64,000 nt of DNA, taken from assembly GCA_021014325.1 (NCBI GenBank), contig CM037476.1, forward strand, positions 15,536,827-15,600,826, read 5' to 3'. Numbering within the stretch: the first letter of the stretch is position 1; the number at the start of each line of letters is the position of its first letter. Position numbers and translations under genes: made by a program. Source of the DNA: Plazaster borealis. Its lineage: Eukaryota > Echinodermata > Asteroidea > Forcipulatida > Labidiasteridae. The notes below the pieces were generated by a model. The model saw only the letters and a program-made list of their open reading frames with translations, had not been told where the DNA came from and did not search any database. This document shows, piece by piece, positions 3,332 through 36,100 of the stretch.

Positions 3332-3412
3332 ATGTCGGCGGACGAAGATACAGAATTGAGGGACTTGGTGGCCCAAACTCTTGAAAGCAGCGGTGTGTTA
3401 GGCAAAATAAGG
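3332..3412 (+). CDS. CEP43: CEP43 exon 1 (residues 1-27)
   Basis: Begins at the ATG of MSADEDTELRDLVAQTLE and ends AAAATAAGG before donor gtgagt, phase 0. It matches the start of vertebrate FOP. The true 5' UTR and transcription start were not identified. Confidence 0.93.
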
Positions 3413-9400: not shown

Positions 9401-12400
9401 AGTTTGGTCCATTTCATTCTTCCAAGTAACAGCTGAACAATATGTTAGTAATAGGCTTAAGTAATGTATCAAAAATTCTCAAAAGCAGACGAGGCTTAAG
9501 ATCATTCCCTACATGCCTACGAATAGTAAAAGCAGCTTTAGAAGCTTTGTCAAGAAGATTCTTGTCGTTTAGTTTAAAGAAGCCAGATGATTGAAAAATA
9601 ACACCTAAATATGTATAGATCGCCACACTTTCAATTTCTTCTTGGTTAAAATTAAAACTACAGGTATGCCCTTTCCGAAACTTAGAAAGATCGCTGTTGA
9701 AAGTGACAACTTTGGTTTTCTGAGTGTTAACAACAAGTCTCCACTTATTACAATAATTCTCAAGCCTTTTGAGTAAGAGTTGAAGACCCTCTTGCGAATC
9801 AGATAAGAGAACCATATCATCAGCATACAATAAAGAATTGATTTTCCGAGTACCAATTTCTAAACCATGAAAAGGAGCTCGGCCAAGCTCAGTCTCCAGA
9901 TCATTTAAAAACAATGAAAAAAGGAGTGGGCTTAAAACTGCACCCTGCTGAACACCTAATGTACAGGGAAAAGAATTAGTAACTCCATGCATCAACTTAA
10001 TACAACCATTTACCGAACTGTACATACTTTTCAAAATGTTTAAACATTTATGACTAATCCCATAATTCCTTAACTTAAACCAGAGAAGAGAACGGTCAAC
10101 ATAATCAAAAGCTTTTTTGAAGTCAACAAAACAAGCGAATAGTTTTTTCTTTTCGCTGCAAGATTTCTGAATGACAGTATTTAAAACAAACACATTGTCC
10201 ATGGTGCAATACCCTGCTTTAAAACCAGTTTGGTTATCGGCTAAAATTTCATCAGCCCATTGGGTCAACCTATTCCTAAGAACTGTTTGAAATAATTTAC
10301 CCAAACAGCTCAATAAAGTGATGCCCCTGTAATTTCCTGGGTCACTTCGTGACCCTTTCTTGTGAATTGGGCAGATGAGACCATCAGACCATGAGGACGG
10401 AACTTGCTCTGTTTTCCAAATAAAATTAAATAATTTAGTAATTGGTTTGCACAAATAAAAACTAGCAGAAGAAATCATCTCGGACCTAATGCCATCTTTG
10501 CCAGGTTGTTTGTTGTTTTTCATGGTTTGAACAGCCTTTTCTACCTCCGTCTCTGTAACTGGACAATCAAGTACTCCAAATCAACAGTAGGCCTACTTAT
10601 ATTACCCGTGATCTCAGCATTTTTAACAGACATGTTAAAAACGTCATCAAAAGAATTATAATTAGTAGAAGGGTTACACAAATTAGAAAAATAGTTATAC
10701 CACTCATCGGGATTAACCTTCCGAATCATTGTTGTGGGTATTCTCCATGCTAGTTAAGTCCCTAAGTTTTCTCCAGAATAACTTATTGTCTTTGCTGGAG
10801 GCTTCAAGTTCATTGATTTGCACCTTTCTAAAGTAACGTTTTTTCGCTCTAATTGTGCGCTTGTAACATTTCTTTTGTTTACAATACAGACCTTGGAGAT
10901 GTGGGTTTTTCTTATCTCTACTGAGAGCTTTACAATTACCCTGCATTTCTTTTCTTAGCTGAGTACAATCGTTATCAAACCATTTACAGCGTTTCTTGTG
11001 ATAACTCTGAGGGTGCTCATGAAATTTACTTTTAAAGCGAGCTATTTTGGGAAGCAGCCTATTAGCAACCGTATAAATGATATCTTGAAAGCTATCTAAA
11101 ACGTCAGCACTGCTGTCAGTAAGTTTTTTGCCATTAAAAGTAGCCAATTTCTCTTGAATATCTGGAGCATCATATTCATAATTATACGCATTGACATACT
11201 CTCTAGACCACTTGTAATGTGGTGTATTAAAACTCTGAATATTTTGTCTATTCAAACTTTTATAATGAACTGTATTCACATTGTCAACCGATGATTTGAG
11301 AGTAACTTCTAACAAACAGTGATCAGAAAATGGATTCAGTGGAGTGACACTAAATTTTAAAATCTCGCTTAATAACATCACTTCTGAGGCTACTACATAA
11401 TCAACCACACTACATCCAACCGTGCTGTCTTTACCAGGTTGATAACAAGTCATTTTGCCATCATAATCGTTAGAAATTCTACCATTTAAAATTCTCAGTC
11501 CAGCAGAAATACACATATTGACTAAAAGTTCACCATATCGGTTTTTGGTACTATCACTCACACTGTTCTCTCGTTTGAGATCACTATCTGCAATGTAGTT
11601 ATCCGGTACTGGTACAAAACTGCATTCATCCTGGGGCTGGTCAAATATAGCATAGTCTGATAAATCGCCAGTTCATTGAAATCGCCACATAGAAGAATAA
11701 GTCCCTTAGCCGAGTAATGTTCAATTTGTTTTGTAAGCTCATCGAAAATATTTAGGTTCATGATTGCGTTTCGTTTCGATGACTCCGGGCAAATGTACAC
11801 AGCAGCAACGTAAATGTCATTCTCAATCCCAAAGCTTGAAGCTTTCAATTGAAACCATACTATATCATCTACGTCAGATCCAATAATCTTAACACATTCT
11901 ACAAAACAAGTCTTAACTAAAATACATATACCACCCGATTCTCTTTTAGCTTTCTTATGCCGGGTCTTTCTGTTGAATTGAAAACACTTAAAATCAGGTA
12001 TATTCAACAAATAGTCCTTATCAAGCCATGTTTTGCTCAGGCAGATAATGTCATACTTTGAAATTAGATCAATAAAAATAGGGTCTTTGAGTTTATTAGC
12101 AATTCCATGAACGTTCCATGTTGCAATGGTAATGTTCTGTTGACATCCTTATGTGCGGCTAGGCTTACTACGACTCGCCGACGCTCGCCCCCCTTTCTCA
12201 CGTACCGTGCCTTTGTTTCTTTGGCTCTCTCGTGTACCCTTTCGGCCAGGTGACCGTTCATCCTCCCCCTTTGCAGACGTTTCGGTCCGTAGCGTTCCGT
12301 CTGGATCAAGCTGACTCGATAGTGCTCTCTGCTCATCACTTACTGGGTCGTAGAGCTTACCGTCAACATAAAGCTTGTCACCTTTTAGCCATACTCTTTT

Positions 12401-15400
12401 CCCCTCCTGTTCCATGCTCTTTTTCATGGGAACGAGTTTGGCCCGTCGCTGTTGAGCTTTCTTGTGAGGTCATCTGCAATGAACACTTTCGAGCCCTTTA
12501 GCTCCCCTTTAGATTTCATGATTTCCTGCTTTTTCTTCCATGAACCAAATTTAACAATAATGGCTCTGTCCTTGTTAAGAGTCTGAACTCCAACTCGGTG
12601 TACACGTTCGATGTCTTGCTTCAGGCATTCAACTTGTAGTTCTTGCTTTAACAGCTCAAGTACAAGGGACTCTGGATTGTCGTCTGGCACCTCAGGAATG
12701 CCAAAAATGCGTACGTTGTTCCTACGGGAGTATGCTTCATTTCTTTCGATTAGCAGGGCGTGGCTCATAAGAATTTTTTCAACATTGGCGTTCATGGATT
12801 TCTCTCGTTTTAGGCTTTTAACATGGTTCTCGAGACAGGTAAAATTATCGTTTACCTTATCAATCTCAAACTGCAAGCTTTCGTGAATTTCGTTGAGTTT
12901 CTTGTCGATAACCTCGTCTAGAGTTCGCTTAAAGTCAGTTGCAAATCCGTCAATCCTCTCAACCATGCGACCTTCCAGCGATATAAGTTGGGTTTTTAAG
13001 TCCATAATTGCAGCAAAAACATCTGGAGTGTCACTGGCTTTTTCCTGCATCACTGCCTCTTTCCTATTAATCTTACTAGCCATGTTTCATAGGTCTCAAG
13101 CAGCCCTATATCAACGAATTACTTCGGCACAGAGCGTATAAGGAGCGGAGAGCGGAGAGCGTAGAAAACATGATGTTCACCCTTCCGCGACTTCAATTAC
13201 AATTATAATAGTAAACCCTGGGAGGGAAACTCCTTACTTGGACCCTGATTGGAAAACGACTGGTGTACACAAGTCTAACGTAAATATGTTGAGTTGTACT
13301 CATTCGAGTAGGAAACGACTCCCTCTGAAGTAACGTAGTTTTTGAGAAAGAGGTAATTTCTCACTAAAATAATAAAAACTTCATACAAGAAGTTTTTATT
13401 CCTATATCTGAAAGCACACAAATTTGTACAGCAAGGGTGTCTTTTCTTTCATCCTTTTCTTGCAACTTTGATTCCCAATTGAGCCCAAATTTTCACAGGC
13501 TTGATATTTGATGCATATGTTGGGATACACCAAATGAGAACACTGGTCATTGACAATTACCAAATGTGTTCAGTGACTTTAATATTCCTCTTGTGAGGAA
13601 AAAAAATGCATTGCCCTCAGAGGCCGTGCAAAGTTTTCAACATTTTTAAGGTCGAACTGAGAGTAGGACTTTTCAAGACCCCCCCTCCCTCGCCCCAAGT
13701 TGTACATTCTCAACATTATCAACATTGTTTTGTACGACCAAGAACATTTTTAAAACTTTGGACGGCCCCTTACAAGAATAAAATATCACGCCTGAGATGT
13801 TGTAGACAAATTCTTTGATGCAATGGGAGACTTTTGGGTCTCTAGGTGGCAGCAGACTTGCCAGGTACATAGACATTTTCGCAAATACTCGGTACGCGCT
13901 CATTTGCCGTAGGAAGAGGTGCATGCTGGTAGAGTAGTGACACATTTTAGCTGTGCCGCCATTGCTGGGGTGGTGGCAGCGCAAGTTTTTGTACACAAAG
14001 GCGTGGACAAAATGTCCTGCTTTTTAAATTTTTATGCCAATTAGGTAACCTTCCTCAACGGTTTAATTAATTTTCCTGACAGGATAGCGTGACATAATGA
14101 TGTAGAACTTGCTAAAAAATATTTGCAACTAAACAAAAAGTAAATTCTGAAATTCTGACAATAAAAAAGTTTCTGATGTATTGTAGGCCTAAGGCGTTCC
14201 TTGAGCAAGATACGTTACCCTAATTGCTTTGTCCTTCAGATGGGACATTAAGCAGTAGGTCCCGTGTACTAGGATTGGTAGTGCACGTAAAAGAACCCAG
14301 AATACTTATCTTGGAAGAGTAGGGGGTTAACCCTGGTGTTTCTGGTTTACATAGCAAGCATTCTTGTCTACAGGTTTACTCAGGCTTGCAAGCTACAGTT
14401 ATTAAGTTCACTCAGGAGGCATCCTTGGTTTCATTACCTAAAATATATAATAATAATTACATCTATAGAGAATCACACTGGATTCACCAACTCAAGACAG
14501 TCCAACCCTTTGGACTAAACATAAACACTGGTGTTAAATAACTTCCCATTACCCTCCACTTCACTCCTGCTTGATAATTCATGTACTGTATATATTCTGT
14601 AAATAAAGTGTAAATAAACACATTTTTTTCTGTCAATAAGTTGTTTTTTATAAATTTGTTACTATAACTATCTCATGTAGTAACCTTTTTTCCACAGGTC
14701 CCTCACACCTATTTTTAATATCATCCTACCTTTGATCTTGCTATTCTTTAATTGACCATTGTTAGTTGCATCATGATGCAACTTGCTCTCCAATCCTACT
14801 CTTTCATGTTTCCCTGCATTGTTATCGAACAATGCATTTACCACTTTTATGGTCCAGTAATCCATCCTTTCATACTATACATCCTTTGTCCTCACCACTT
14901 TACTCCTATTGGTTCATAGCCACCAATTGTTTCTGAAATAGAAACTTTGATTGGCTATAATTTTCCCGCTTCTTTCTGGATCCTTCCCTTAATCCCTTTC
15001 CCCTCTCTTTTTCTATAAATGGATATGTATTTGTTTGTACTTGTTTTATGCCTCTGAAGAAGGTCCGGTCTGGATCGAAAGCTAAGGCCATCTACCCTAC
15101 TCATTATTAATAATTACATCTATTTATATAAGAACCCTTCTAATTCTTATGATAACAACAAAGTCTTCTCTTCTCTTCCAGGGAGAGAAATACGAAGGAA
15201 GAGAAACCCTCTCCAAGGATCTCGACATCGTTGATTCCGACAAGTCAAGGGGGAAACCCCTCCTCTGTGAGGTGCTGAATCGAGCCAATGAACAATCCAG
15301 TAGACCCCCCCGGCCAAGGTCAAATTCCAGAACCGAGGTAAAGGTCGCCGCAATTCCATTACACAGAGCCCATGGCCTCTGTTGCCCTAGTCTTGGCCTT

Positions 15401-18400
15401 GGTGCCCCTTCAAAAGTTTCCCGTCGTAGTCTTTAAGATTTTCCATTGGAAGTGCCCTTTGCGAAAAGGAAAAGGCCTTGCCCTCTCAAAGATGAAATTG
15501 AAGGCCTGAAACACTTTTGAGATGAGTGAAGTCCTTAATAAAGTTATCTACTTCTCAAATGTATCCTTATAACCCCTCAAAGGAAAAAAAGACAATTTGA
15601 GCACACGATCAAAAACGTTGACTTATTATAACATAAGTTTTGTTCAGAATCAACACAACTCATTTCAGAGAGATTATTACAATGTTACTGCGTTTATTAT
15701 AATTTTATGCGCAAAAGTATGCACATTTGTTAATTATACATCACACAGAAAAGAAACAAAAGCATTACCAAATAGCCGTACAAATGTTGAAGCTTTTACC
15801 GTAGGCTTGTACGTAACATGGATTCTCCCACTTGGCTTCAAAACCCAGGGCAAGTTCACGCTTTAGTCAATATATAGGTCTATGGATTGAATGTACTTTT
15901 GATATTTAATAATGTAATATAATTCATGAATAATGCAATTTTTTGACCACCCTTTTTTTTAAAGGCAGGGTATACTTTTGGTAATTACTCTACAAGTTTG
16001 ACCATAAAAACTTACTTGGTAAGGAGCACTGATATTATAAAACATTGTTAGAAACGACCCCCTTTGAAGTAATGAAGTTTTAGAGAAAGAGGTAATTTTC
16101 ACCCACAAAATTTGAATCTGAGAAAGGCTTCAGGCATGAAGCATTTCTCAGGCACCTGAAAGCACACAATTCTATGCAACAAGGGTGGTTTTTCTTTCAT
16201 TATTTTCTTGCAACTTCGATGACCAATTGAGCCAAAATTGTCACAGGTTTGTTATTTTATGCATATGTTGGGATACACCAAGTAAGGATATTGGTCTTTG
16301 ACAGTTATCAAAAGTGTCCTGCCTTTAAATGTCTTAAATCCTTTACATTTATGTCCTTAATAATAATCTGCGACCTGTTCAATGTTTTCTTCTTCTTTTT
16401 TCCTATTCAGGAAATTGCCATACCAAAGGTAGATTTGCATGAATTTTATATGCTAGCATTAAAAAAAACTAAAAAAACATTGCATGATAATTACTGCATG
16501 ACAGGTACATGGATGATGTAGTAACAGATTTCAGTCTCAACTGCATAGAGCTGCTTAGCATCATTGATTTAATTGCTAAGCAAAACAATTAGCAGGTTAC
16601 CCGTCACGGTTATACTCATCATCTAGGAATGTGGCTGGTAACCTGACTGTTTCTTTTTAGCAAATGCACACTAAGCAGATATGAGTGCTAAGAAGCTCTA
16701 TGAAATTGCTAAGAAGCTCTATGAAATTGATTCTAGCATGGACAACAGAGAAATTAGCAGGAACCAATGATAAGTACTTTTGTATGTAAATTACCCAAGT
16801 ACCAGTACATTGCATCATTGCATGTACATGTAGATGGTAACCTTTCACTTCTACTTGTGTCTAAGCAAGATGTTCTTTGTTAATGACAAAGTCTGTCTCC
16901 CTAACATCATTTTGATATTGGGCTCTGGGCCCAATTTCATAGAGCTGCAAAAGCAGAAAAAAAATTGCTTAACATTTTTCTGTTTAACAGATATGAGCAG
17001 GATACCAGTCACAAATTGTACACATGACACGGTAGTTTGGCTGGTAATCTTTGGTAGTTTGGCTGGTATTCTGGTAAGCATAATTTTGTTGTGCTTAGCT
17101 ACTTTTTGTGCTAAAGCAGCTCTATGAAATTGGGCCCTGGCCCCAAGAAAATAATGAAACTCCCATTTTGAAGATGGCCTAACCAAATCCCTTTGTTTAC
17201 CCCCACCCCACCCCACCACCACCCCTAACACCCTCTCATTATAACAATAAGGCTGACGACAGGAAAGATGTGGTTTACAGAGTGGTAAGATCAGATATTA
17301 TGGTGTGCTCAGATAATATGGTGTGCTGATTTCAATTTGGAGTATTGTGCTGTAAGTTAGAACAGAGCTATGGGATAACAGAGATGGGCTGGGGGGGGGT
17401 GGCTGTGTGGCTTTGGGTTTCTCCTGACTAATGAACTGAGTGATTTGGTAACATTTCAAAGTGATGTACACAAATTTACTCAGTCAAGCAAACTGACAAG
17501 AATGTTGCCCTCATGAATACATACATGATTCCATCTACACATCCAAATAGTGCGTTCTTGATCACGAAAGAGCTCATACACCGTACATGTTAATGACACA
17601 AAGTCAACATTTTTGCGATGAGTATTTCCTTTCTGGCAAATCTTCACAGCTAGGTAACATTCACAGTTAGGCGGTGATATTTACAACAACAACGAAAAAG
17701 AAGGAAAAAGAAGCAATTTGGTCATTGACAGTAGCGAGGAGGGTCGCATCACTTGGAATGACCAAGAGAAACACTGGTGGTCACATGACATCCCCCATAT
17801 GGCAGCAATGTCTTCTAACACTCCCAACCACAAAATTACTAAGATATACACTTTCAATACAGTATGATTTTGTCAAATATCAAGCACGCTGTTTAATCCA
17901 CAGGCCATGAAATACCAACCCCCTCCGGAAAGATAATAGATATATATCTATTGTTACGAACAATCTTTTGGAATTTATGTTTAATTAAATGGGACGATTT
18001 CACGTACATCTTCATCAGTAGTTCCTCGAACAAATTCAATGGATTTTGAGTACATTTTGGGTGCATTCCATAAATAATGCATCATAAAATGTTTCCAACC
18101 CCATCCCTGATGATTTAATCCAGTTGATTAACCTATTTTTCTCTTCGTACTAATCTCACTGTTTATGGAATTACAAAGTTGCATCGCCCAATTTTCTGCC
18201 AAAAGACAGTTATAAAACAGTTACCACATTTCTCCAAACAAATTTTGATTGATTGATGCTGTTGCAAAATGAAAAACATAAAAACATAAGCGTACGCCAT
18301 GCACAATATGCGAAATACTGGGTCAAGTTCGTGCAAGGACCAATGGTTAACTTGTGGTTCAACTGTGGTTCATTCTCGTTCAACTGAAAGTTTAAAAGTT

Positions 18401-21400
18401 TGTCAATTAAAGGACAATAGTTATCTCATTTTCGAATACTTGAAAATAAGTTTCCCGAATTTTTTTTACCGCGTAAGGGCGTTTGTGGACCAAATTTGCG
18501 AAACAAAAATGAATGGTTTTTCTCATTGTTTCATTGTTTATATTTATTTGGCCATTGATACAAGAAAACAACATGCATGTACAGGCAATCAAAATGAGAT
18601 AAAACTGTAATTTTGATGTGAGGAATTTGCTGTTTAAAAGTGCCCCTATAGAGTCAAAAATACGGTCAATTTGCCGTAAGGCAAGTCAATTTGCTATAAT
18701 TTGTTTGCTGTTCATTTGGCAAAAAATCAAGCGATGCATCTTTAACCATAGACCACTAAATTACTAAATTACCAAATTTGTACAATGTTTTCCTCAAACA
18801 TATCTTAATATGTAGAATAGGTATAATACATTAACTCTATTTTTATCTAGCATGAGAAATACTGTAGATTCCTAGTTAGTTATAATAACATTTTCAAGAC
18901 TTTATCATTTTGTTTTTGAATTCATCTTTGTACAATTAAACATATTAACCCCCTATTGACTGACCATTCGACATTGGTTCAAATATCTCAACAAATTGTT
19001 TCAGTTATCTGAACTTTGGTCACTTTTTTGAAGATTTGTAAAATAGAATCAACCATTTAAACAATGTAAATATAAAAGCACTGCAGGGCTCGAACTTGGT
19101 GGACAGCTACGACTGTTGCTAAGGGTGTTGCTAAGGACATTCTATACTTCAACGCATGATGACTCGGGAATCCAGCAGTGGCCGTAGCCGCCAATTCGGA
19201 CACTACCTTACTGTGCGGTGAACATTTTATGCGACGCCGGCGTTGTCTGCTTTGCACCATATTTTGACATGCAATGTAACTCCTAAAATGGCAGACCATT
19301 TGCAATGAATAGCTGCCTGTGATTGCTGTGCGAGGGGTTGATTGACCCATTTATTGCACAACGCGGAATGCACCTCTGCAAAATGCGCATCTACCATTTC
19401 CACCAGTCAATTCTTTTGTGTACATTTTGACTCCCAAAATGGCGGACAGGATAGGCGCGTGTAAGTGCGCTGCGCATTGTGGAAGGGGTCAATACCAGCT
19501 TGCATTCTGATATCATGTGGTGAATTCATCTACGCAGTACACAATTTATTCAATCAATTCACCATTTAAATACAAGATATTTGCCCAATTTGGAATGGTC
19601 AGTTAAATAGGTTTCCAAATCAACGGCTTTGGCAGTGGCTATGGCTGGATTGCTGTAATAGCCTATTCCTCAACGTTGTCATTGTAGTCAATGGCCATAG
19701 CCATAGCCAAAGTTACAAGAATCAACGGCTTTGGCAGTGGCTATGGCTAGATTGCTGTAATAGCATATTCCTCAACGTTGTCATTGTAGTCAATGGCCAT
19801 AGCCATAGCCAAAGTTACTAGAATCAACGGCTTTGGCAGTGGCTATGGCTAGATTGCTGTAATAGCCTATTCCTCAACGTTGTCATTGTAGTCAATGGCC
19901 ATAGCCGTAGCCAAAGTCATTAGATTCAGACACCGTCTAAGTTGTCAACTTGCAAACCAAGGTAAATGTAGAAAAACTAGTACTATTTTACCAAATTTTG
20001 CGGTGAACAAAGATAAATTGACTAGAACGAACTTTGAACCTACAACTTCCGGGATTAACATGCTGGCAATCTATCAAATGAGCTATCCCATTTTATAACA
20101 CCCCTTACAAGGTTTCTGCCATTTGATTGGTTTTAGAGCGCGTCACATACATGTCTTATTTTTACAAGAAAGTACTATACCCGTTGCAACCAATGTACTA
20201 TACCCATAACAACCAGTGTACTATACCCATAGCAACATCAGCTTCTTGGTACCTAGACGTCTAGGCACAATATATGTTTTTGATGTTATAAAACAAATAT
20301 TGACTGCTTTTACTCGATATGGTTAAAACTACGACTCCCTCTGTGATCCCGGAGTGTACTAGTAGCCTCGGGGGAAATAGAACGCGTCGAGGATCAGCTC
20401 AGGTGTCGTAGTTTTAACCATAGCACTTGAAGCAGTTAATATCTGTATACTAGTCAATTTGTCTTTGTTTGCCCAAAAATTAAAATTAAATTGAGTTTGC
20501 TCAGTCAATTTCCCTTGTAGTTGTGGTTTATCACTTAATATTTTGTCCACATTGTATACATTTTTTGTGCTTAGGATCTGAATGCAGTACAAATTGCTGA
20601 TGCAAAAGAGAAGTTTGAATACTATGATAAGGTAAGGAACCAGACTTTCTGCTTGTTCTAGACTAGACTTGTTCTATGCCTAGACTAGACTTGATTTCAA
20701 GTCTGAATTTGCGGTTATTTCTCTGCATCAGCCACGCAAAACTCCCCCGCAGATTGGATATAACCCGCTCTGACTCGCGATCTCAGATTTGACCCTATTG
20801 TGTATACGGGATATTCATTTATTCACAACTGAAATTTACAGAACAACTCTGATCCCAGAGCAATGGCCAATCAGGAGGCCACATATTGGCTGTGTCTATT
20901 ACCAATAGGTTACAATCACTTCAGCATTTTCTGTAAAATATCATGGGTCTTATTTTTGTATAGCGCTTGGTGTGGTGGTATTTCTAATTTATATCTAAAT
21001 AAATTTATGTGGTGTTGTATTTTTAATTACTGGCTGGCCCATTTTTATGGTTTAATATTTTTAATGATCTTTTAATGCTCTTTGGTTATTTCCTCCTCTT
21101 TTTTTGGTGCTGTTTTAATTTGTACAGCGCCTTGGGGTCCAGTCATGGATGTAAGGCGCTTTATAAGCAAAATTTATTATTATTATTATTATTATTATAC
21201 AAGATCATAAAATACTGAAAAATATAACTAATAAAATACCTGACTCTTGCAAGATGAAAAACTGTGTTACCTACGGTTTGAATGGAATCGTCGAGTGATT
21301 TTCCCCAATGTGTTTAATTATTTTGAATTAAAAAACTATTGATTACATGTGTATCAATGTTGTATTTCTGAACTGTATCCTGTGGTATAAACGGTTAAAT

Positions 21401-24400
21401 TTGAATATGCATCTCATAGAAGGCTTCTGCGAATCTGGCCAATCAGAGTGTTCCGTCTACTTTTGGACTAATTTGCCATAGGGTGTGTACAAACCGATGA
21501 AAAATGTTCCCAAATCTGTGATCGTACATGTAGGTTAATGACAGATGTTAATACAAGAGAGGGCGCTATTTCAGGCATTAATGTATTGGCTATCAGGTAG
21601 ACTAAAAACCACGATCACAGACTTGGAACCAAGTCTATGCCTAGACGGACCTTGAACTTCACTCTTGAAGGGGCCTCTGGCAATGTGCCTCAGGTAAGGG
21701 GCACTTCTTTGAGGACAATGTAATTTTGTCTTGGAACTTTTATGAGGAAAATATAAATTTGTATTGGCACTTTACAAAGGACAACACAGCAAAATCACAG
21801 GGTACCACGGCAATTACTGTGGGTGTCCTGGGTTAATTGGAGGCCTGCCAAGATGTGAAAAAAAAGCCATTCTAGTAATAGGCTTTTCCCCACGGGAATC
21901 CCTGCCTGGTGCATGTTTCCCTCCATCTTACAATCTAGATTGTTTGTAGAGAATTATAAATTCCTACCCACAGCAAAAGCACAGAGCACCACGGCAGTTA
22001 CTGTGGGTGCCGTGGGTTAATTGGAGGCCTGCCGAGATGCAGAACAAAGGAGCCATTCCAACAGCTTTATTCCATGTACTGCATCTCTTTGGAACTCCTT
22101 GCCTGGTGCATGTTTCCCTCCATCCTACAATCTAGACTGTTTTACTGTTTGTACTTCTTATTTTCTCTTTTTGGTAGCCCCTGAAGTTTAGTCAAAGTGG
22201 TTTGTAGAGGCTGTCACAAATATTGTTTACTTTTATGAAAATAGTTTATTTATAATTCATGAATTTGATTTATCAGCAGTTAGTTTTAAACTGATTGCTT
22301 TTAATTTATGCTCTCATGTAGGCTCTCAAGATGATTTATTTTTTCTTTTTGCAGGACAAAAGTGGCTCAGTTGACAAGGATGAGCTCAGGAACTTGTTTA
22401 TTGATATGTTCCCGCACTTCCACAGGTAAATTATTGCAAGTCTTATGTTGTATTTGTTTGTAAAGTGTAATAAACCTGGGCGCATATTGTGGCGTGTCGT
22501 GGCCGAGCGGATAAGAGCACCGGACTCAAGCTCTGGTGTTTCTGATCAGCAGAGTGTGGGTTCGAGTCCCAGTCGTGACACTTGTGTCCTTAAGCAAGAC
22601 ACTTAACCATTATTGCTTTGTCCTTCGGATGGGACGTAAAGCTGTAGGTCCCGTGTGTTGTGTAATGCACGTAAAAGAACCCAGTGCACTCGTAAAGAGA
22701 AGGGGTTCGCTCTGGTGTTCCTGGTTTGATCAGCAGCATATTGCGCCACAGCACCTTGTAAGCTATAAAGGAATAGGTGTCATACTTCAACGTAGTTCCG
22801 CATACCTTGCAGGAAAAAATACTGAGCGCCTTGATACGCCCCTAGGGGTGTGATAAAGCGCTATTATATAAGAGCCCAGTATTATATTCATAGAGCTGCT
22901 TAAGCACAAAAAGTAGCCAAGCACAACAAAAATAATGCTTACCAGACTAAGGTCACCATGCCACATGTCAAATTTGTGACTGATATCTTGCTTATTTTTG
23001 TTTTATCAGCAGAACATTTTTAAACAACATTTTCTGATAAAACAGCTCTATGAAATTGAGCCCAGTACATGTGTTTGTGACAGCCATCTGGAATAAATAT
23101 CTATTGATTTGAATTAAATGAATTTATTCATAGTTGTACCATTTGCTGAGTCGCTACCTTTACTGTTTTCCTGTGCCCAATTTTACAGAGCTGCTTAAGC
23201 ACCACAAAATTATGCTTACCAGAACATGGTTACCGGTCAAAAAGCCATTTCACATGTACGATTTGCGACTGGTATCCTGCTAATTTCTGCTTAGCAGGAA
23301 ATCATTAAGCAGTATTTTCTGCTTAAGCAGCTCTATGAAATTGGGCCCAGTGCCTGTAGCGTCTATCTTAAGAGAAACACGTAGCGGCATACACTCCTCA
23401 GGCGAACATAGTTCTTTGTTTTTTCTGTTCTTTATAGCTCTGTTTCCTCTACCGCTACCAAGATTTGTTACAGCCATTTTCAGCACACAGACCTTACATG
23501 TACTTAGTAAACCTGGCTCTTAGTAAACCTAGTAAAACCAGGCTCTTCCTGCAAAAACTGTGTATATTTACTCATCGAATAGATGAGACGAAGAGCTTTG
23601 AAAACCTAATAAGGGCCTTTAACTCGAGCTCTGGTGTTTCTGATCAGCAGAGTGTGGGTTCGATTCCCCCGGTCTTGACACTTGTGTCCTCAAACAAGGC
23701 ACTTAACCATTATTGCTTCATCCTTCGGATGGGGAGTAAAGCTGTTGGTCCTGTGTGTTGTGTAATGCTCGTAAAAGAACCCAGTACACTTATCGTAAAA
23801 GAGAAGGAGTTTGCCCCGGTGTTTCTGGCTGGTCTGGCAGCAATATGCGCACCACACCTTGTATACCTTATTATGGCCTCATAAAATCATTCTTAACAAG
23901 CTCCACCTAATTTGATATTTCGGCGCCAGGAGTGTCATTTATGACAGACATGGCGCATTATAAATGTACACTATTGTCGTCTTCACTTTGCCATTTCAGT
24001 ATTTCTGAGAAGTGTCTGATTTTGGTGCAACGGCGTAACGGCACCGCACAAGGTTTTTTGTGTGTGTTGTTTACAGTTTTTGTCTCTGCACTGTTCTAGT
24101 TTTGTAGGAATAATAATGTTAGAGCTAGAAGTAGCACCACACAGGCATGTGTTGAAATACTCGGCTGTTTGTTGTTGTTGTTGTTGTTGTTGTTTACAGT
24201 TTCTATCCCTTGTATCGTTACAGGAATATGTTAGAGCGATATGTGAACGATGAATTCAGAGCTGGGGACAGTGACTTCAGCAGTTGTAAGTAAATTTCAA
24301 ATTATCTTGGAGTTTGACCTCGACGCTTACCCACGGGTCACGCTGGTTATAAACTGTGCTGTGTCAGTCACTTTGATTCCAACTAAAAGGATGAGCAATT

Positions 24401-27400
24401 AGAGGATGAGAATCATTTCGTGGACAAGTACTGTGTGTCAGAATTTTGTTCGTCTGACTGGTCACAGTACATAAACACTGTTCCTTCAAAAGCCCATATA
24501 ACCATGGTAGATTTTGTTGATTTTTGAGTAAAATTTCAAACTCACAAAATTATCAATATATCTCCAATAATGGTTAATTTACCCAGTTTGCACAAATAAA
24601 ATGTCAACTCATTAGTAGTCCGCATTGTATCATTTGAAATCATAAAATCGCAGAAAGATTATTGACCCCAAGTATTGAAAAGATGACTATGCCGGCATGG
24701 TAAATTTTTTGATTGAACCAAAATTTCAAATTTACAAAATTATCAATATGTCTTAAACTGCGGCTAATTTACCCAGTCCGGACAGATAAAACATCATCAG
24801 TAGTCCGCACTGTATTATTTGAAACCATAAAATGAAAATTTGACCATGCTGGAAAATTTGACCATGCTGGCAAGGCAAATTTTGTTGATTTTGGACTAAA
24901 AAAAAATTATAATAATATTCCAAACTGGTGGATTTTGTTGATTTTGGAAAAGAATTTAAATAAACAAAGTTATCAATATATCTCAAACTCTTGCTTATTT
25001 ACCCAGTCCGCACAATTAAAACGTCAATTCTGTATCATCTGAAATTATATACCTCATGTAAAGATTCCTCTAATCTGATTGGTTAAAAGTGCAGTCATTG
25101 AAATAGCTGGGCCCCCTTTTTTTGTCAAGATGACGTCATAATTAACTGTGCCCGGGGCACAGCAGTTGACTCTGCCCGCCCTGAAAATAATGGAACAGTC
25201 GCAACACACTGTATTCATAGGTTGCTTGTGTACTGTACGCGTTGTATACATTCGTGTCACGGCGCGAACTGTGACCTTTCTTCGCAGACAACCTTTCAGC
25301 GTAGTCAGGGTTGTTTGTGTACTTGTCAAACTTTATTATCGCATAAAATGGCTGAAAATACTAGTAATAATCAAGCAAGATTTCATCTCAACAACATGAA
25401 ATCAACCACCTGTAAATATGTTACTGTGGTTGACTGTTTTTAATGGATTTTAACTGTTCTCCGTGTTGGATTGATGGATTTTAAATGTTATCCGTGTTGG
25501 ATTTTAACTGTAAATGGTATGATTCTACAATTGACTTTAATAAGCGAAATGAACGAAATGAGTACATGATTTCGGTAAGTTATTACACTTTTATTACATT
25601 TCAAAAATCAAGGCATATGCTGTAGGCCTTATCAGTTCAGGAAATCTTTTCACCAATCAGATTAGAAGAATCTATATTAATATATTTGGTTTGCGGTAAC
25701 ACCATGTGTGTATCTACTTGCCAGGTAGAGTTTGTTCTTAGAGAACTGTCTTGCTTAATTCTACTACCGCGGAGTAGATTGTTCGGGTGTTCGGGAGACT
25801 TCTCAGTTCAGAAAAGAACTGTCCTGTTTATTAACTATTACCTGGGCGGAAGGTATAGAATTAGGCTGGGACTACTACTTTAGCTTATAGGATCGTAATT
25901 AACTGTACTACCGTGGAGTCAGTTCATGGATTGGTCTCAACGTTTCGACTAGCTTGCTCTCGAACAATCTACTCCGCGGTAGTAGAATTAAGCAAGACAG
26001 TTCTCTAAGAACAAACTCTACCTGGCAAGTAGATACACACATGGTGTTACCGCAAACCAAATATATTGATACCTCACCATGCAATGCCTAAAATCCTATA
26101 TAAGAATCTATATTATTCGGTATATAAAAGAAATATTGACTGCTTAATATTCGGGGCATACCTTGGGCCTATAATTTTAACTGTGCCCCGAATATTAAGC
26201 AGTCAATATTTCCATACCATAAAATTGCAGAATTTATTTTGAACCAAATAATTTAAAACTGGCCATGCCGGCATGGTGGATTTTGTTGATTTTGGACAAA
26301 AATTTAAACACACAAAAATATAAATGTATTTCAAACTCGTGCTAATTTACCCAGTCTGACAAATAAAACGTTTGTTTGGTATCTTTTGAAACCATAAGAT
26401 CACAGAAATTGTTTTGACCCAAATATTGAAAATTGACCACGCCGGCACGCTTCATTTTGTTGTGTTTTGACCAAAAAATCAAACCCACAAATATATCAAT
26501 ATATTTCAAACTCTTGCTAATTTACCCAGCCTGCACAAATAAAACGTCCGTTCTGTATCATTTGAAACCATAAAAATCGCAGAATCTATTTACAACCAAA
26601 TAATTTAAAACTGACTATGTCGGCATGGTCAATTTTGGTGTTTTGTTACCAAAATTATAAATATAATTCAAACTCTAGCTAATTTACCCATTCTGCACAT
26701 ATATAACATTATCAGTAGTCTGTTCTTTTAAACCATAGAATCCCAGAAAGTTTTTTGACCCAATATTGAAAATTTTGTGAATTATGTTGATTTTCGACCA
26801 ATAATTTATACTCAGAAAATTATAAATATTTTAATCTCTTGCAAATATTATACCCAGGCCGCACAATTAAATGTCATCACTAGTCCGTTCTGTATTATTT
26901 GAAACCATAAAATCACAGAAATGTTTTTCATTTACAGGTTTTTTTCCCCGTAGCTGGGCTTTCACAGTGTTTGTTAACGGGAAATCTCATAATTAGGCAG
27001 ATATTTGGGTCAGAGGAATAACCAGAATTAATTGAATTCCAAAAGTTATTATTTTAATTGGTAGAAATCCTTTTGCAATTGAGACCTCAAACTATGCTTT
27101 CTTTTCATTTTAATGACCACCAGGTATTGACTTTGATGAGTTTCTTGGCATGTATCGTCGCTTGTTTGTCGTTTGTCGCTCCGTCGTTTCAAACGACGTC
27201 TCCGAGATTGTTCCTCAGTCCCAAAGAAGACTCAGTGATTCCATCAAGACCAACATCAACTTGAAGCCGGTAAGCCTTGATGAATCATACCCACCCATAC
27301 CCATAAATTTGGATAAATTTTGATTTATGTGTAAACAAGGACAGGTGAGTCAAAACACTTCCATTTGACGTCTGCCGGGCCAAAATAAATGTATGAAGGA

Positions 27401-30400
27401 TTGGGCTGGAATGAGCAGTGAACATCATATCTTGTATACATCCAGAAGTTTTATGGACCCATAGGTTACTGTGTAAATAGACATGGGTCAAGGCTATGGA
27501 GAAAACTGTTTTTACTTCAGTGGCGTAACTAAGGCGTGGGGGAGGGGTACATGCCCCCCAATTGATGTCCTTGGCACCCCCTCTTTTTTAACTCGACCGT
27601 TGAGATTAAGAACTACCAAAATTCATTGTTAAAACTATTTCTTTATAATGTAGCGCAGACATTGTATTTGTTTTTACCTCCATGTCAGATGATCTTTTAT
27701 CAAAAATAGTAAACAGAGCACTGAAAAAGGGCATCATACAAGACATTGCGTAGATTATGATCTTGTTTGAGGAAACTACCAATTTTATTGGCAAGAAGCG
27801 CCCGCTGGAAAAGATGTTGCACTACCTTGTGCCCTCTGTAAAATGTACCTTACTTTCACAGTTGTGTTGCCTGCTCTGCAGTCTACTCAAATTAATAGAC
27901 TGTGTTTAATCATTATCTTTACCTTAAACGTGGCTGAATTTGTGACATTATTCCATAGGAATAGAACACAGAGAATACTTGTTGGCATGAGTGGTTAGTG
28001 CATAAATTGCTTGCCTCTCACAACTGTGGCCCTGGTTCAATTCCCGGCAAAGGCCACATGTGAGCAGAATTGTGCATGAGGATTTTCTCTGGGCCTTCCG
28101 GTTTTCCTCCCTCCAGAAAAATCAAACACTTTCGATCTCTGGCTGTGCTCCGTGGTCATGGGTCTACATGAGTAACTGCCAAATTGCACCTTTACATGCC
28201 TTTGGCTTGACCATTTTGTAGCCGTGTCCTTCGCAATTCATCCTTAGTCTCAGCTGCGAGTAAGGACGATTAGCTTCCCAAATTGTTATTATTGTCATCT
28301 GCGTTTATGTGCTATTGTCTATGTCAGCTGTGGAGTTAGAGTATCAATACAATGTGACATGCCTGTATGGCTAAATTACCCAGGTCATACCAACAGGGAA
28401 GTTGATATTTGCCAAGTTCAGCTAAAATGTCCGCGCGCATGAACTGCCTCCAAGCAGATGCTACACAAAGCATTCTCCAATTTACCACTTCACGTCCGAT
28501 GACATGCTTTCCCACCAAATTTGTCCAAACCTGTTTACGGTTAACGTTTATAAACGACTGGAACAACTTTACCTTTTGAGCATCCTTATTGGGTTGCGGT
28601 CAGTTTACCGGCTGATGTATGCCATTGTGTAGCATGCTCAGGCATGCACCTACCGTGCATTTTCCCCATACAAAGAGGGAAAAAGAACTGGATATCATGC
28701 TGGAAATCTTCCTTTTTCTGGGGGATATTGTTTAACTGATTCTATACCTTCTTCCTTTTGTTGTACAAACGAGGATTACTGTTAATTTATAGGCTGCCAC
28801 GATAGTTTTTCATTGAATTTGGCATATGTCCGATATTCCAGCATACAATGGCTGATTATCGGCTGTGAACGGCCAAGATTCAGGCCTATTCATTCCATTA
28901 TATTTTTTGAAAGCAGGCATGATATTCTTCCTACTCTAATCTGATTTCCAATTTTGTGTTGCCCTCAGAAAAATCGGCAACATTGTTATTAAATAGCCTG
29001 AAAAGTCTATAACAGCCTATACCACTAGTAGGTCAGCCCTTGTCCTACTTTTTTTCCAAGGGCCTGTGAAAGAGAACTAAAAATCCCTCTGCATTTTATG
29101 AAACATTTATTTGCCTTACTATCTTTAGTCGGGGTTTCATTGTGACAAGGATATTCTTTAAAAATTTAGTTATCAGAAGCTTGGTAAAGTTCGGGAAAAA
29201 ATACACAGAGTCACGGTAAAAGATTTTTTAAGTGGGTAATACCAGTGATGTTGTGCATTTTAATCTACATTGTATATTAGAAGTTTTTCACTTTTGCATT
29301 TTATTATCTTGAAACTAGATAAGCGTCGGTCAGAGCAACAATTTTAACAAGAAAGATGGCACAGGCGCTCGGAACCTTCCCTCGTTTAATGAGAAATCCG
29401 AGCTGAGGAAACCCATCGCACATCGTCAGAGGTCCCTCTCAGGTGGGAGTGAGGGTAGTGAAGACTCCTTCTTCGATGAGATACCATCTCCTGGGAGGAA
29501 GCCTTCTACATTTAGCAGGTACTGGAGTTTTCCCCCATTTCGAATTTCTACTTATCAAAGCGGCTACAAATGCATGTAGACTCAACCAAAATGCCCATAG
29601 CGGCTACAAATGGTTTCTATCGAAATGCCCATAATAGCTACAGGTAGCTTCAAACAAAATGCCTATAGCGGCTACAAATAGCTTCTACCAAAAAAACCCA
29701 AGGCGGCAACAAATGGCTTCTACCGAAATTCTGCTAAGCAAAACTAAGCAGGATACCAGTCACAGATAGTACATGTGACATGGTATTTTGGCCTTTAATC
29801 TTGTTCTGCTAGGCATATTTTGGTTGTGCTTGGCTACTTTTGTGCTTAAGTAGCTCTGGGAAATTGGGCCCTTGTTTTTATGTGTCACAAAGAGAGTTAG
29901 CAGCAACGTTATTGCAGCAGTTAACCTGGTCCCAATTTCATAAAGCTGTTTACCGGTAAGCACTTTTTTGTGCTTTTTATGTCAATAATATGAGAAAGCA
30001 AAAGTTTATTTCATAAACCAACGAGAAGATTTGACAGTGCATGTGTGCGTTCACAATGGATTGGCATTGTTGCATCCTCCTGAAGACGATCAGAGCACAC
30101 TGATCGAAACGTTGAGTCGTTAACCACCGGTTCTGTTCAGAACCAACTCTACTCAAAGAGATATTCACATGGTGTTACCGCAAACCTCTCTTAGTTAACT
30201 GTTGCATCACTCATCTTCTTACAAGAACCGCCCGCAAGTAAGCGGGCTTTTTGCTTTGCTAACGGTTAGCAGTGGTTATGAAATAAACATTCTGCTAATG
30301 GTTCCAGAAGCATAACGGCTACAAATAGCTTCAACCAAAATGCCCATAGCGGATACAAATAGCTTCTACTAAAATGCCTAGCGGCTACAGATACATGTAG

Positions 30401-33083
30401 CTTCAACCAAAATACCCATAGCGGGTACAAATGGTTTCTACCGAAATGCCCATAATGGCTACAGGTAGCTTCAACCAAAATGCCTATAGCGGCTACAAAT
30501 AGCTTTAAAAAAAAAAACTAACGCGGCAACAAATGGCTTCTACCGAAATGCTCATAATGGCTACAAGTAGCTTTAACCAAAATGCCCAAAGCGGCTACAA
30601 ATAGCTTCTACCAAAATGCCCGTAGCGGCTACAAATGGCTTCCACCAAAATGCCCAATTGAGAAACGTCTGTATGAGAGAGGTTTGACATTAAATAAATT
30701 AAGCAAATCATTGTAAGGCAATTAGGCAAATGGCTTCTTACGATGCCCATAATGGTTTTAAATGGCTTCTACCAAAATGCCTATAATGGCTACAAATAGC
30801 TTCTACCAAAATGCCCATAGTGGCTATAAATAACTTCTACTAATTAATGCCCATAGCGGCTACAAATGGCTTCTACCAAAATACCTATAGCGGCTACAAA
30901 TAGCTTTACAAAAAATGGCTACAAATAGCTTCTTCAATGCCCAAAGCGGCTACAAAAAGCTTCTACAAAAATGCCCATAATGGCTCCACATGGCTTCTAA
31001 CAAAATGCCCATAGCTGCTACAAATTACTTCTACCAAAATACCTACATGTATAGCGGCTACAAATAACTTCTACCAAAATGCCCATAGCAGCTACAAATA
31101 ACTTCTACCAAAATGCCCATGGCAGCTAAAAATAACTTCTACCAAAATACCTATAATTTCTACCAAAATGCCCATAGCAGCTACAAATAACTTCTACCAA
31201 AATGCCCATAGCAGCTACAAATAACTTCTACCAAAATACCGATAATTTCTACCAAAATGCCCATAGCAGCTACAAATAGCTTCTACCAAAAATACCCATA
31301 GCGGCTACAAAAAAGCTTCTACCAAAATGGCTACAAATGGCTCGTTTAAAAATGGCTAAAAATGGCTTCTACCAAAATGCCCATATCGGCTACAAATAGC
31401 TTCTACCAAAATGGCTACAAATAGCTTCTACCAAAACGGCTACAAATGGCTTGTACCAAAATGGCTACAAATAACTTCTACCTGAATGCCCATAGCGGCT
31501 ACAGATAACTTCTACCAAAATACCTATAACAGCTACAAATAGCTTCTACCAAAATGCCCATAACGGCTACAAATAACTTTTACCAAAATGTCTATAGCAG
31601 CTACAAATAATAGCAGCTACAAATAATAGCGGCTACAAATAACTTCTACCAAAATGCCCAAGCAGTTACAAATAGCATCTACCAAAATGGGTAAAAATGG
31701 CTTCCACCAAAATGCCCATAGCGGCTACCAAACCGGCTACAAATAGCTTGTATCAAAATGCCCTAAGCAGCTACAAATAGCTCCCACCAAAATGTCCATA
31801 GTAGCTACAATTAACTTCTAGCAAAATACCCAAAGTGGCAACAAATAACTTCTACCAAAATGGCTACAAATGGCTTCTACCAAAATTCCCATAATGGCTA
31901 CAAATGACTTCTACCAAAATGCCCATAGTGACTAGCTGTAGATTTTCAGTGAATCTAGTTCAAAATATTTAATAAATTATTATGTATTGACTTATTCCTT
32001 ACTATAAGTTTTCTCTGCCAATTTTCAGCAAAAGTTCTTTAAAAGTTTACATCCAGCTCAATCAAATTAATGCTTTTTTGTCAGCATTCAACAGTCAAAA
32101 GGAGTAGTTCAATTTCAACAACTTAGCATTCATTGGTAAAATACATGTAAGACCATTGAAATTCATTTGATTGCAAAGAATATAGCATTTCGTAAAAGAC
32201 CGCAGCAAGAAGCTGGTCAACCAGTAAATTTCAATTTTTCTGAAATTGACCGGGAATATCTTTATTTTGATTGTACCCTTTTTATGACAAGCAAAATCTA
32301 TTAAATCCTTTTTTTGTTGTTATTTACTTAAAGCTTGAAGTCAAAAAGAGAGAGTCCTCCGCAGTCACCCCCCAAAACGCCACCCTCGAAAGCAAGTGGA
32401 TTGTCCTCCTTAGTCAATGCTCCATCGCTCACAGGAAGTGGGATGGGATCTCTGGCAGGGGCTCCGCCATTATCAGGGAAGGGAGGTGCTAAAGGTAAGT
32501 AATATTGCCGAGTACTAAAGTATATTAGTAAGGGCTTGAATTTTTGGGGAAAGACTGCAGAGCTTTTAGCTCAAAATAATTACTGGCCCAAAAATTTTAC
32601 AGAACCAGAATTGAAAACGAGAAGAAAAGTTAAAATCCCCACAAAGTTTAACATTTGAACTGTTTTAATTTTAACTGGTTATGATCGAGCAAGGCACTGC
32701 GCCTTGCTCGGTCATAACTGCTGGAATTGTGACTTTGAAATAGAGACTTACGCACAGCGCTGTCGAAGAGGCATCAAGTCATAGAGCAACTGGTCCCCCA
32801 GTTTAGGGTGACCATATAAAAACGTGATTCATTTGAAATGTATTGTGTCGAAATACGTGTATTTTGACTCAAGCATACTTTTTTTAAACAAGCTTGTGCG
32901 TAGAGCAGTCACTTTTGGTCAGCCAATTAGCATTGGTTTTTCAGCACATCCCTTCCAGGGGCTAGTGATGAGAGGTATCAATATGGCGTGCTGCCCATGG
33001 TAGCGAGACTGTTCAGGCCTGTGAAATCTCCGCTTTAAAGCGGATATCCGTTTGGTTTTTTTGCTTTTTCTTTTTTCTCCCCT

Positions 33084-33118
<35 letters not shown>

Positions 33119-36100
33119 CCCTGTTTTTTTTTTCTTCTTCACTTTTTGGCAACAGTAATGTATAACTACAATAATGTGAAATAAGCCTAGTTACTGGATC
33201 AATGGGGTGCCCCAATTCGACCAGCGTAAATGCGTGACTCGCGCTCACGTGACGTTCCACGATCATTCTTACATCATGTAGTGTTTCAGCTCTTTTTTTA
33301 AGGGTCCACTCACAGGCCTGACTGTTGAAGAAGCTATGGGCAAACCCTGTAAGAGCTAATAATGTAACATCATTGTAATTTGCATAAACAGGTTATCTGT
33401 GAAGGCGGAATGGAAGTGCCTGATGTGTGACAATAAATTAGTTGTATTTTTTATTTAGTTAACAATTTGTTTTTCAAACACAAGCTGGTAAGTGCTCCAT
33501 CTGACCCCATGTTGCAGCATTTGGTTTTGAGGCAGTTGGGACGGCTCAGTGACTGAACAGTCAAAAACACTGATTATTATATTTTTCCCTTGTGGTTTAT
33601 TACATGATATTCAAAGAAAAGGTTGCACGGTGATCCCTTTACAATGCTACTTTCCAGGTTGAATCCTAAACTGGGCATGACCCCTGTCTATACAGCTGTT
33701 TGACTTCTGACTGCCCCCCCCCCCCCCCGAACAAAGATATCAACAAAATAGGGAGACTGCCACACAGGGCTAGATAGCTCAGTTGGTAGCGCACCAGCAC
33801 GTTGATGCAGAGGTCGCAGGTTCAAATAATAATAACAAACAACTAGTTTTCATATAAAGCTTTATCTATGGCCATCTCAAAGTGCTTAACTATTTTTTTA
33901 AGACAGGTTTTTGAAGATTTTGAATTATGAGACCGATTAATGTAGCACATTATAAGGGTTTGCAAGGTGCTGTGGCGCACTCGGAAGCCACTGCCAGAAA
34001 CACCGGGGCGAACCCCTTGTCTTAGCAATTAATGTAACTAGGTTTATTAATTAACACAGCACATGGGACCTACGGCTTTATGTCCCATCTGAAGGCAAAG
34101 CAATGCTGGTTTGAAGGGGTACATTGACTTCAAATCTCTCAAAATTTTGCAGTCTAGAATTTCTCCTTATCCTTTTTGAGAGTTTTTGTTGATGGACAAA
34201 AAACACCTACAGTGTGTTGTGATGAGTGATTTTAAATAACTTAAATTTGCCTCTGGAAATACAACCAGTGGAACATACGGTCCACCATTTTGTGGAGTCA
34301 AAAATTTGGTTCTACAAAATAGCGAACCATGTTTTGTCATGAAATAACACAAAAACCGCACAGTTTCAAGGGATATTTATTTGAATCATTACATTCTACT
34401 GTTAAAATGTCAAGACCGGGATTCGAACCCACACTCTGCTGGTCAGAAACAGCAGTGCTTACGTCCAATGCACTTAACCACCATGCCACAGCCTGTTCTA
34501 GTCAATAGTCTTTGTTCACACCAATCTATACTAACCAGGTTAGTTTCCCTTGTCATATATTACTTGATGTCTGTTTTGGATCCCTAGATGCCCAGAGCCC
34601 AGACTGGAAGGACCTGAAGGCATTGGATAACAAGTTGGACAAGATGAGCTTTGACCTCTCTAAGAGTGAAGGCAGCGAGGATTATGAAGATGATTTCCAG
34701 AGGTAGGTTGGCCTTTTACTCCTCAGCAAGTTGGTGGGTGACTTGAGTCGAGTAGACTAAGCTATAGTGGATCTAGATTGCATGATATTTGGTCCTTGGA
34801 AAAAGGTAGTAACTTGGATTTAATAGACTTTTCAGGCTGTTTGATCACAGTCTTTTTTTTCCCTTTTTTTTCCAAGGACAAAAAAATGGAAATTAGACTA
34901 AAGTAGGAAGGAAATGACTAATAACCTTTGTCTTTGCCTTCTCCTTTTCCCCACAGATATCCCCCTTTTTTTAGCCTGCCCCAGTTACTGATTAATTACT
35001 TGTTCTCCCTCTCCCTCTTCCCACCTTTGATCTTGTCCTTTGTGTTTCCAACTTCTTGTGGACAGACCAGCCCCCTCCCTCCACCCCCCTCTGTCTCCCT
35101 ATTCATTGTTTACCCCTTGCCTCTATTCATGTATTTCCACTTGACTGCTTTTGTTACACTTATATACCTGTTCATGTGTGTTGTCTTGTCATTTAGTCTT
35201 TGAGAAAGACTCTGCTAGGGTTGAAACGTCAGGCCATTAACTATTTTTTGCATTCAAGGCATCGTACACGTTTGGTAATTGTCAAAGACCAGCGTTCTCA
35301 TTTGGTGTATCCCAACATATGCATAAAATAACAAGCCTGTAAAAATTTGGGCTCAATTGGTCATCGAAGTTGCAAGAAAATGATGAAAGAAAAAACACCC
35401 TTGTTGTACAAATTTGTGAGCTTTCAGATAGGAATTTTAACTTCTTGCAAGAAGTTTTTATTATTTTAGTGAGAAATTACCTCTTTCTCAAAAACTACAT
35501 TACTTCAGAGGGAGTCGTTTCTCACAATGTTTTATACTATCAACAGCTCTCTGTTGCTCGTTACCAAGTCAGTTTTTATGCTAATATTAATATTTTGAGT
35601 AATTACCAAACGTGTACGATGCCTTTAAAGTAGGAAGAATATGTAACCCTAACGCTGCTCGGTTTGACTAGCTAGTACAACTGGATCAAATTAGCCCCGG
35701 AGCACTGTTTCTCTAGTCGAATTTGCGGTTACATTACAGTTAATTAGCAACTTGATTATAACTGTAGGTTTTTATCAATATGATAATAATTTATCTTTGC
35801 AGTGAGATAATTACACTAAAGTAGAGCCATATCCTACAAAGTTATCCTTAAGGAGGAAACCTACATGTACATTCCTCCCACAGCAATATGTGACGCCCCA
35901 AAGCCTAAGTTGAGCACTTCTGGGGAAAAAGTGAAATGGCGTTCAAAGTAAAGCAATGGAAACATCCATGATACCAATGTGATGCGAAATCTTATAAACA
36001 TTCTATGTATGAGCACATTCTACATTCTATGTAGGAGAAAAGCTTACGTTGTAAGCCTTAATCAGGGTTCCCATGCACAAGGTAGCGATAGGGTCGATTT

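Follow-up and report, generated by a model that had tools for sequence, protein, structure and literature searches.

The question raised by the CEP43/FOP gene of the starfish Plazaster borealis is whether a centriolar scaffold protein carries a calcium-binding module of its own and, if so, how old that module is. The gene lies on the plus strand of a 64,000-nucleotide (nt) stretch of contig CM037476.1, here called the window, and all coordinates below are positions within it. A first-pass annotation of the window had proposed that exons 6-9 of this gene encode a pair of EF-hands, representing either an ancestral domain lost in vertebrates or an insertion in this lineage. The presence of one EF-hand pair inside the window gene is confirmed here. 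Judged by comparison of homologous proteins, the module is ancestral to bilaterians at least and has been kept in many vertebrates.

The pair is encoded by exons 6-9 (20575-20631, 22355-22425, 24224-24285, and 27124-27269), which measure 57, 71, 62, and 146 nt and together make 336 nt. The run starts and ends in phase 0 and is therefore frame-neutral; its borders are GT-AG, and its reading frame is continuous with those of exons 5 and 10. Exon 6 encodes the entering helix of EF-hand 1 and residues 1-2 of loop 1 (20626-20631), while exon 7 supplies the remainder of the loop (22355-22384) and the exiting helix. Exon 8 encodes the entering helix of EF-hand 2 and the start of loop 2 (24267-24285), and exon 9 comprises the end of that loop (27124-27140), the exiting helix as far as CRSV, and a post-EF tail whose counterpart is kept in amniotes in the alignment. 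The loops, DKDKSGSVDKDE at residues 169-180 and DSDFSSCIDFDE at residues 209-220 of a 506-residue protein, lie exactly where the first-pass annotation had placed them, C-terminal to the FOP dimerisation/LisH region and N-terminal to the SFFDE segment, and in both the ligands at loop positions 1, 3, 5, and 12 are present. The paired EF-hand family of Pfam (EF-hand_7) matches residues 160-226 at 35.2 bits, above its cut-off of 30. A search profile was built on ten CEP43 EF segments, none of them from starfish, and run on all stop-to-stop frames of the window with 15 or more amino acids (2871 frames). Its sole matches at E 1 were exons 6-9, in order and on the plus strand (18.6, 43.3, 34.9, and 33.4 bits). 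Since these four exons alone were matched, collinearly and on one strand, the EF match is not due to chance. The predicted structure agrees, although a Foldseek search with the entire 304-residue model ranked EF-hand chains no better than E 5.3e-3; structural alignment of the model told more.

The rest of the gene bears out its assignment as a CEP43/FOP orthologue. It extends from 3332 to 44682 in 14 coding exons (506 codons), with GT-AG borders at every intron and an open frame. Exons 1-5 lie at 3332-3412, 6260-6368, 7993-8081, 15182-15337, and 16411-16428. Exons 2-4 (6260-15337) encode FOP_dimer (residues 47-127; 98.4 bits, cut-off 29.4) and a LisH motif (LisH_2, residues 67-94; 29.1 bits, cut-off 27), and the N-terminal region matches the FOP structure 2d68 at E 1e-23. 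Exon 5 is an 18-nt microexon encoding EIAIPK. Exons 10-14 (29319-29518, 32334-32494, 34588-34702, 40362-40533, and 44599-44682) encode a less conserved tail containing SFFDE and a C-terminal FDYxED segment. An alternative acceptor for exon 13 at 40374, giving 502 residues, was rejected because homologs carry an SSQDSQ segment that points to 40362. The Pfam and structure comparisons used a 475-residue version of the protein (last exon absent, four residues short) in which the EF region is unchanged, and the full-length protein search used the 502-residue version, whose EF region is identical to that of the final protein. Similarity to named CEP43/FGFR1OP proteins runs from end to end: the closest named protein among the matches listed, from Asterias amurensis, shares 90% identity across its whole length and has the EF module and FOP region joined in the same way, while identity is 73% over 100% with a Patiria CEP43-like protein and 53% over 99% with a sea urchin FGFR1 oncogene partner. 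A genome-wide profile search of the 561-megabase genome found just two FOP_dimer loci, the window gene and C21:5540364, which by eye we take to be a CEP20-like gene.

The gene model of the window species rests on genomic DNA, with introns of up to 7.1 kilobases and a retroelement in intron 3, and the fusion might accordingly be suspected to be an error in which exons 6-9 were drawn from another gene. A search with the full-length protein returned 1396 proteins with E values up to 1e-3, and the results given here come from the best 120 of these. FOP_dimer (precomputed Pfam annotation) and the EF module (profile score of at least 114 bits) occur together in 120/120, although four of the proteins (P0048, P0060, P0080, and P0085) have the module by profile without a Pfam EF call. 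Because the query includes the EF region, this set is biased toward carriers of the module. Thirteen entries from the source lgn have longest contigs of 1473-4375 nt with unbroken frames of 438-509 amino acids; as introns of the window gene span kilobases, these entries are presumably complementary DNA and would represent spliced two-domain transcripts in other animals. Introns and phases also fit. With homologs carrying both domains, no more than two FOP_dimer loci genome-wide, and collinear EF-profile matches, the separate-gene reading is rejected as highly improbable.

Among the listed matches the fusion is found in starfish, crinoids, sea urchins, sea cucumbers, hemichordates, amphioxus, molluscs, annelids, a brachiopod, and nemerteans. 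The search for the same insert proposed in the first-pass annotation thus found it in echinoderms, hemichordates, and amphioxus. Vertebrate carriers include sharks, rays, a chimaera, sturgeons, paddlefish, gar, bowfin, eels, and other elopomorph teleosts, as well as, among amphibians, two salamanders (one of them axolotl) and one frog (Bombina). Cnidarians, sponges, ecdysozoans, birds, zebrafish, percomorph fishes, Xenopus, lungfish, and coelacanth fall outside the listed matches, and no inference is drawn for them. That human FOP has no EF-hand would suit an insertion that arose recently in starfish or echinoderms, but the module occupies the same site in protostomes, deuterostomes, and many vertebrates, and indels are few. 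In addition, junctions between fish isoforms (IPK/EL in bowfin, FPK/EL in carp, and YDK/DKSG in bowfin, the slash marking the junction) coincide with the starfish exon borders IPK/DL and YDK/DKSG, and these borders are for that reason taken to be old. The taxonomic distribution refutes a recent insertion, to which we assign practically no probability; of the two origins first envisaged, the ancestral one stands.

Conservation and loop chemistry were compared in 76 module-bearing sequences and 19 from ostariophysan fishes, hand-picked at one per species. Two further searches, with residues 1-130 of the axolotl protein (best 120 of 1767) and of the bowfin protein (best 120 of 1695), are blind to the EF region and contributed to this set, which comprises the window sequence, 67 of the 120 full-length matches, one axolotl-search entry, and 7 plus 19 bowfin-search entries. 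The set excludes isoforms, unnamed contigs, hybrid entries of amphioxus, and a number of named species, including Sinanodonta woodiana, Crassostrea angulata, Megalops atlanticus, Albula glossodonta, Anguilla rostrata, and Ictalurus furcatus. Regional identities were computed on smaller picks of 26, 10, and 6 sequences from the same match lists. Across 26 module-bearing species the EF region (residues 152-237) is the best conserved of the seven regions compared, with a mean pairwise identity of 0.716, against 0.628 for the dimerisation region, 0.18 and 0.17 for the flanking linkers, 0.40 for the SFFDE stretch, and 0.31 and 0.44 for the tail. The full set of ligands at positions 1, 3, 5, and 12 is present in loop 1 of 72/76 sequences, in loop 2 of 75/76, and in both loops of 71/76. 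A loop-1 ligand is lost in conger, a moray, a tarpon, and the shark Heptranchias, and loop-2 ligands are lost in Huso. The first-pass annotation had singled out Ser in place of Gly at position 6 of loop 2 as the oddest residue, but that position holds Ser in 40 sequences, Asn in 35, Gln in one, and Gly in none of the 76, so Ser 6 is not odd and, on this alignment, is a family trait of the CEP43 EF-hand. Position 4 of loop 2 is Phe in 73/76. Owing to Phe 4 and often Ser 6, loop 2 matches a PROSITE-form EF loop pattern in 0/76 sequences, the window protein included, while loop 1 matches it in 69/76. Strong conservation extends to the inter-loop stretch, FPHFHRNMLERYVNDEF. Insertions or gaps within the module occur in 12/76 sequences, all of them from molluscs. 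In Mya arenaria (P0048) about a dozen extra residues break loop 2, perhaps reflecting a retained or optional exon.

The first-pass annotation had ascribed to the vertebrate protein a linker with no EF-hand. This holds for human CEP43 and fails for the sharks, gar, bowfin, eels, salamanders, and frog that keep the module, so that the module was not lost across vertebrates as a group; the listed exceptions are amniotes and a caecilian, together with 19 ostariophysans in which the copy has decayed. In the axolotl search the module occurs in 4 of the best 120 matches (two axolotl entries, Pleurodeles, and one contig 89% identical to axolotl) and is absent at any score from the other 116. The module-less entries come from turtles, crocodilians, squamates, tuatara, marsupials, placentals (human among them), unnamed contigs, and a caecilian, Microcaecilia, neither of whose two listed entries has the module. 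For annotated proteins such absence is informative, because an isoform sharing the N-terminus should rank equally. Amniote exons might still be present yet unpredicted: the evidence consists of annotated proteins among the best 120 of 1767, and the gar entries, some carrying the module and others lacking it, indicate that splicing can hide it. With 116 of the best 120 N-terminal matches module-less, an annotation gap of this kind is nonetheless very unlikely.

In alignment, amniotes and the caecilian show a clean gap at the module with both flanks retained. The human residues QQKEKGPTTGE before the gap and GALDLSDVHSPPKSPEGK after it align with the residues bordering the module in fishes, so the human linker is at least partly the old post-EF tail and not a replacement. 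One gar entry, W5NKY3 (P0254), is exactly the module-less form of amniote type, while other gar entries have the module; all are predicted proteins in which annotation errors are possible. The counterpart of exon 5 (GDxxxxIPK in bowfin) is optional, being absent from certain isoforms of bowfin and carp. In Asterias amurensis the exon-5 position is occupied by another segment, short exact strings of which were not found between exons 4 and 6 of the window gene. The predicted bowfin isoform X6 (P0238) retains the exon-6 part and skips the remaining module, leaving part of one EF-hand. Module-less forms may thus have arisen through exon skipping or deletion. Skipping of the EF exons would have been present in early bony fishes, the short form later becoming the sole form in amniotes, and the short form of the caecilian may have arisen separately or through shared splicing.

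A different fate is seen in ostariophysans, where the segment is kept and its ligands have decayed. The best 120 bowfin-search matches fall into 21 with an EF profile score of at least 130 bits (bowfin, gar, tarpons, eels, conger, moray, bonefishes, and one unnamed contig), 95 at 60-130 bits, two with fragments (bowfin X6 and an electric eel entry), and two with none (gar W5NKY2 and W5NKY3); the bands are our own choice, and the profile behind these counts included the window sequence. From their names we take all 95 middle-band entries to be Ostariophysi, which was looked up for Chanos only. In the 19 ostariophysans picked, the segment is present and both loops are complete in 0/19 when Glu is demanded at loop position 12, or in 3/19 if Asp is accepted there. 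In carp, loop 1 has Ala for Glu 12 and loop 2 has lost Asp 1 and Glu 12; in catfishes loop 2 is shortened. Mean EF region identity to bowfin is 60% for 10 ostariophysans, compared with 85% for five other ray-finned fishes among themselves, while the corresponding N-terminal values are 83% and 87%, so the loosening affects the module more strongly than the N-terminus. The fold predicted for the carp protein keeps two helix-loop-helix units with 10-residue means of the predicted local distance difference test (pLDDT) of 80-90, intact sequences making up 13 of the 34 in its alignment; outside the EF region the model is poor (mean pLDDT 50).

These observations bear on what the module does. Its main rival function is that of a structural docking lobe, calcium-independent, with conservation reflecting a constitutive partner surface. 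The conserved inter-loop stretch, the non-standard loop 2 in 76/76 sequences, and the EF fold still predicted for the ligand-decayed carp protein all suit such a lobe. However, positions 1, 3, 5, and 12 held in both loops of 71/76 sequences are hard to explain without metal, and the whole domain diverges faster in ostariophysans, where the ligands decay. For these two reasons a metal-dependent role is favored, and the structural lobe seems to us less likely than not. We consider the module to be, with moderately better than even confidence, a calcium-regulated docking lobe on the centriolar scaffold, ancestral to bilaterian CEP43. The ancestral protein would have consisted of the dimerisation/LisH region, one EF pair resembling the N-lobe of calmodulin, and a poorly conserved, probably disordered tail, and the window gene would keep all three. 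The TOF-LisH part places FOP-family proteins at the centriole. Loop 1 would bind calcium conventionally, and loop 2 more weakly or cooperatively with loop 1, given Ser or Asn in place of Gly at position 6 and Phe at position 4. With calcium bound, a hydrophobic cleft would open to receive a helix from a mother-centriole or basal-body partner, or from the protein's own tail, and scaffold assembly would thereby become calcium-sensitive. A bolder proposal, which we hold tentatively and judge somewhat less probable than not, is that ancestral bilaterian CEP43 gave the mother centriole and basal body a calcium sensor of their own, as a scaffold equipped with a centrin-like lobe, which amniotes excised by way of the frame-neutral exon run and ostariophysans independently disarmed. 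If true, cilium assembly and disassembly would be under calcium control via CEP43 in most animals and by another route in mammals.

The window contains several repeats besides the CEP43/FOP exons. The retroelement remains in intron 3 (8588-13083, minus strand) include a frame at 9414-10523 with RVT_1 (138.9 bits), which we read as a non-long terminal repeat type. Intron 1 holds a fold-back element, a near-perfect large inverted repeat at 3538-4295 whose 231-nt and 125-nt arms are 99% and 98% complementary, respectively. In a minisatellite at 47533-48861 a 21-nt unit is repeated 63 times (92% matching), with several frames open, and a degenerate minisatellite with a basic unit of about 34 nt lies in intron 10 (30311-31929). 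By eye, a dispersed repeat of about 350 base pairs with ends resembling ggtatcgtacacgtttggtaat occurs at 45-360, 15960-16330, 35270-35640, and 41220-41600, and a further copy is seemingly split by the intron 3 retroelement.

Among the animals compared, human CEP43 is without the best-conserved part of the protein, and work on human CEP43 alone would miss the module. Should the module sense calcium, it would provide a direct calcium link to the centriolar scaffold in many animals and explain why mammalian studies have been blind to it. Vertebrates offer a natural comparison of intact, decayed, and deleted versions, with gar records showing both forms. Several homologs, vertebrate CEP43 included, are labeled "EF-hand domain-containing" or carry an EF-hand Pfam call in databases through automatic annotation. 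No paper on an EF-hand in CEP43/FGFR1OP was found by title and start of abstract among 5.39 million open-licence papers, a collection outside of which most subscription papers lie. Prior documentation in vertebrates therefore extends to database calls and to no paper found, and the module is seemingly a conserved yet undescribed part of a well-studied protein.

Human CEP43/FOP (FGFR1OP; N-terminal domain in PDB 2d68) has FOP_dimer and LisH in common with the window protein. The EF-hand pair is absent from it, with no EF-hand family of Pfam matching the human protein (P0231) at E 1, and its LSDVHSPPKSPEGK stretch aligns with the stretch C-terminal to the EF-hands in fishes. Calmodulin and centrin are free-standing small proteins with four EF-hands, whereas the window protein has one pair inside a 506-residue scaffold. 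Compared with the calmodulin N-lobe, the CEP43 pair has four extra residues over the aligned stretch and lacks Gly 6 in loop 2. In the parts of the literature consulted, the sole EF-hand mention in PMC8471410 is centrin, none occurs in PMC7693466, and the title of PMC11984960 names the calcium sensor NCS1. TbFOPL, FOR20/CEP20, and OFD1, compared by description only, share the N-terminal TOF-LisH layout, and the portion of PMC6070722 that describes them does not mention an EF-hand. TONNEAU1, a plant FOP-like protein, is described as interacting with the EF-hand protein centrin (PMC6070722; PMC8622359), and it is on this account that a docking lobe in cis is proposed for CEP43: centrin is a separate small EF-hand protein, whereas in the window gene the EF pair belongs to FOP itself.

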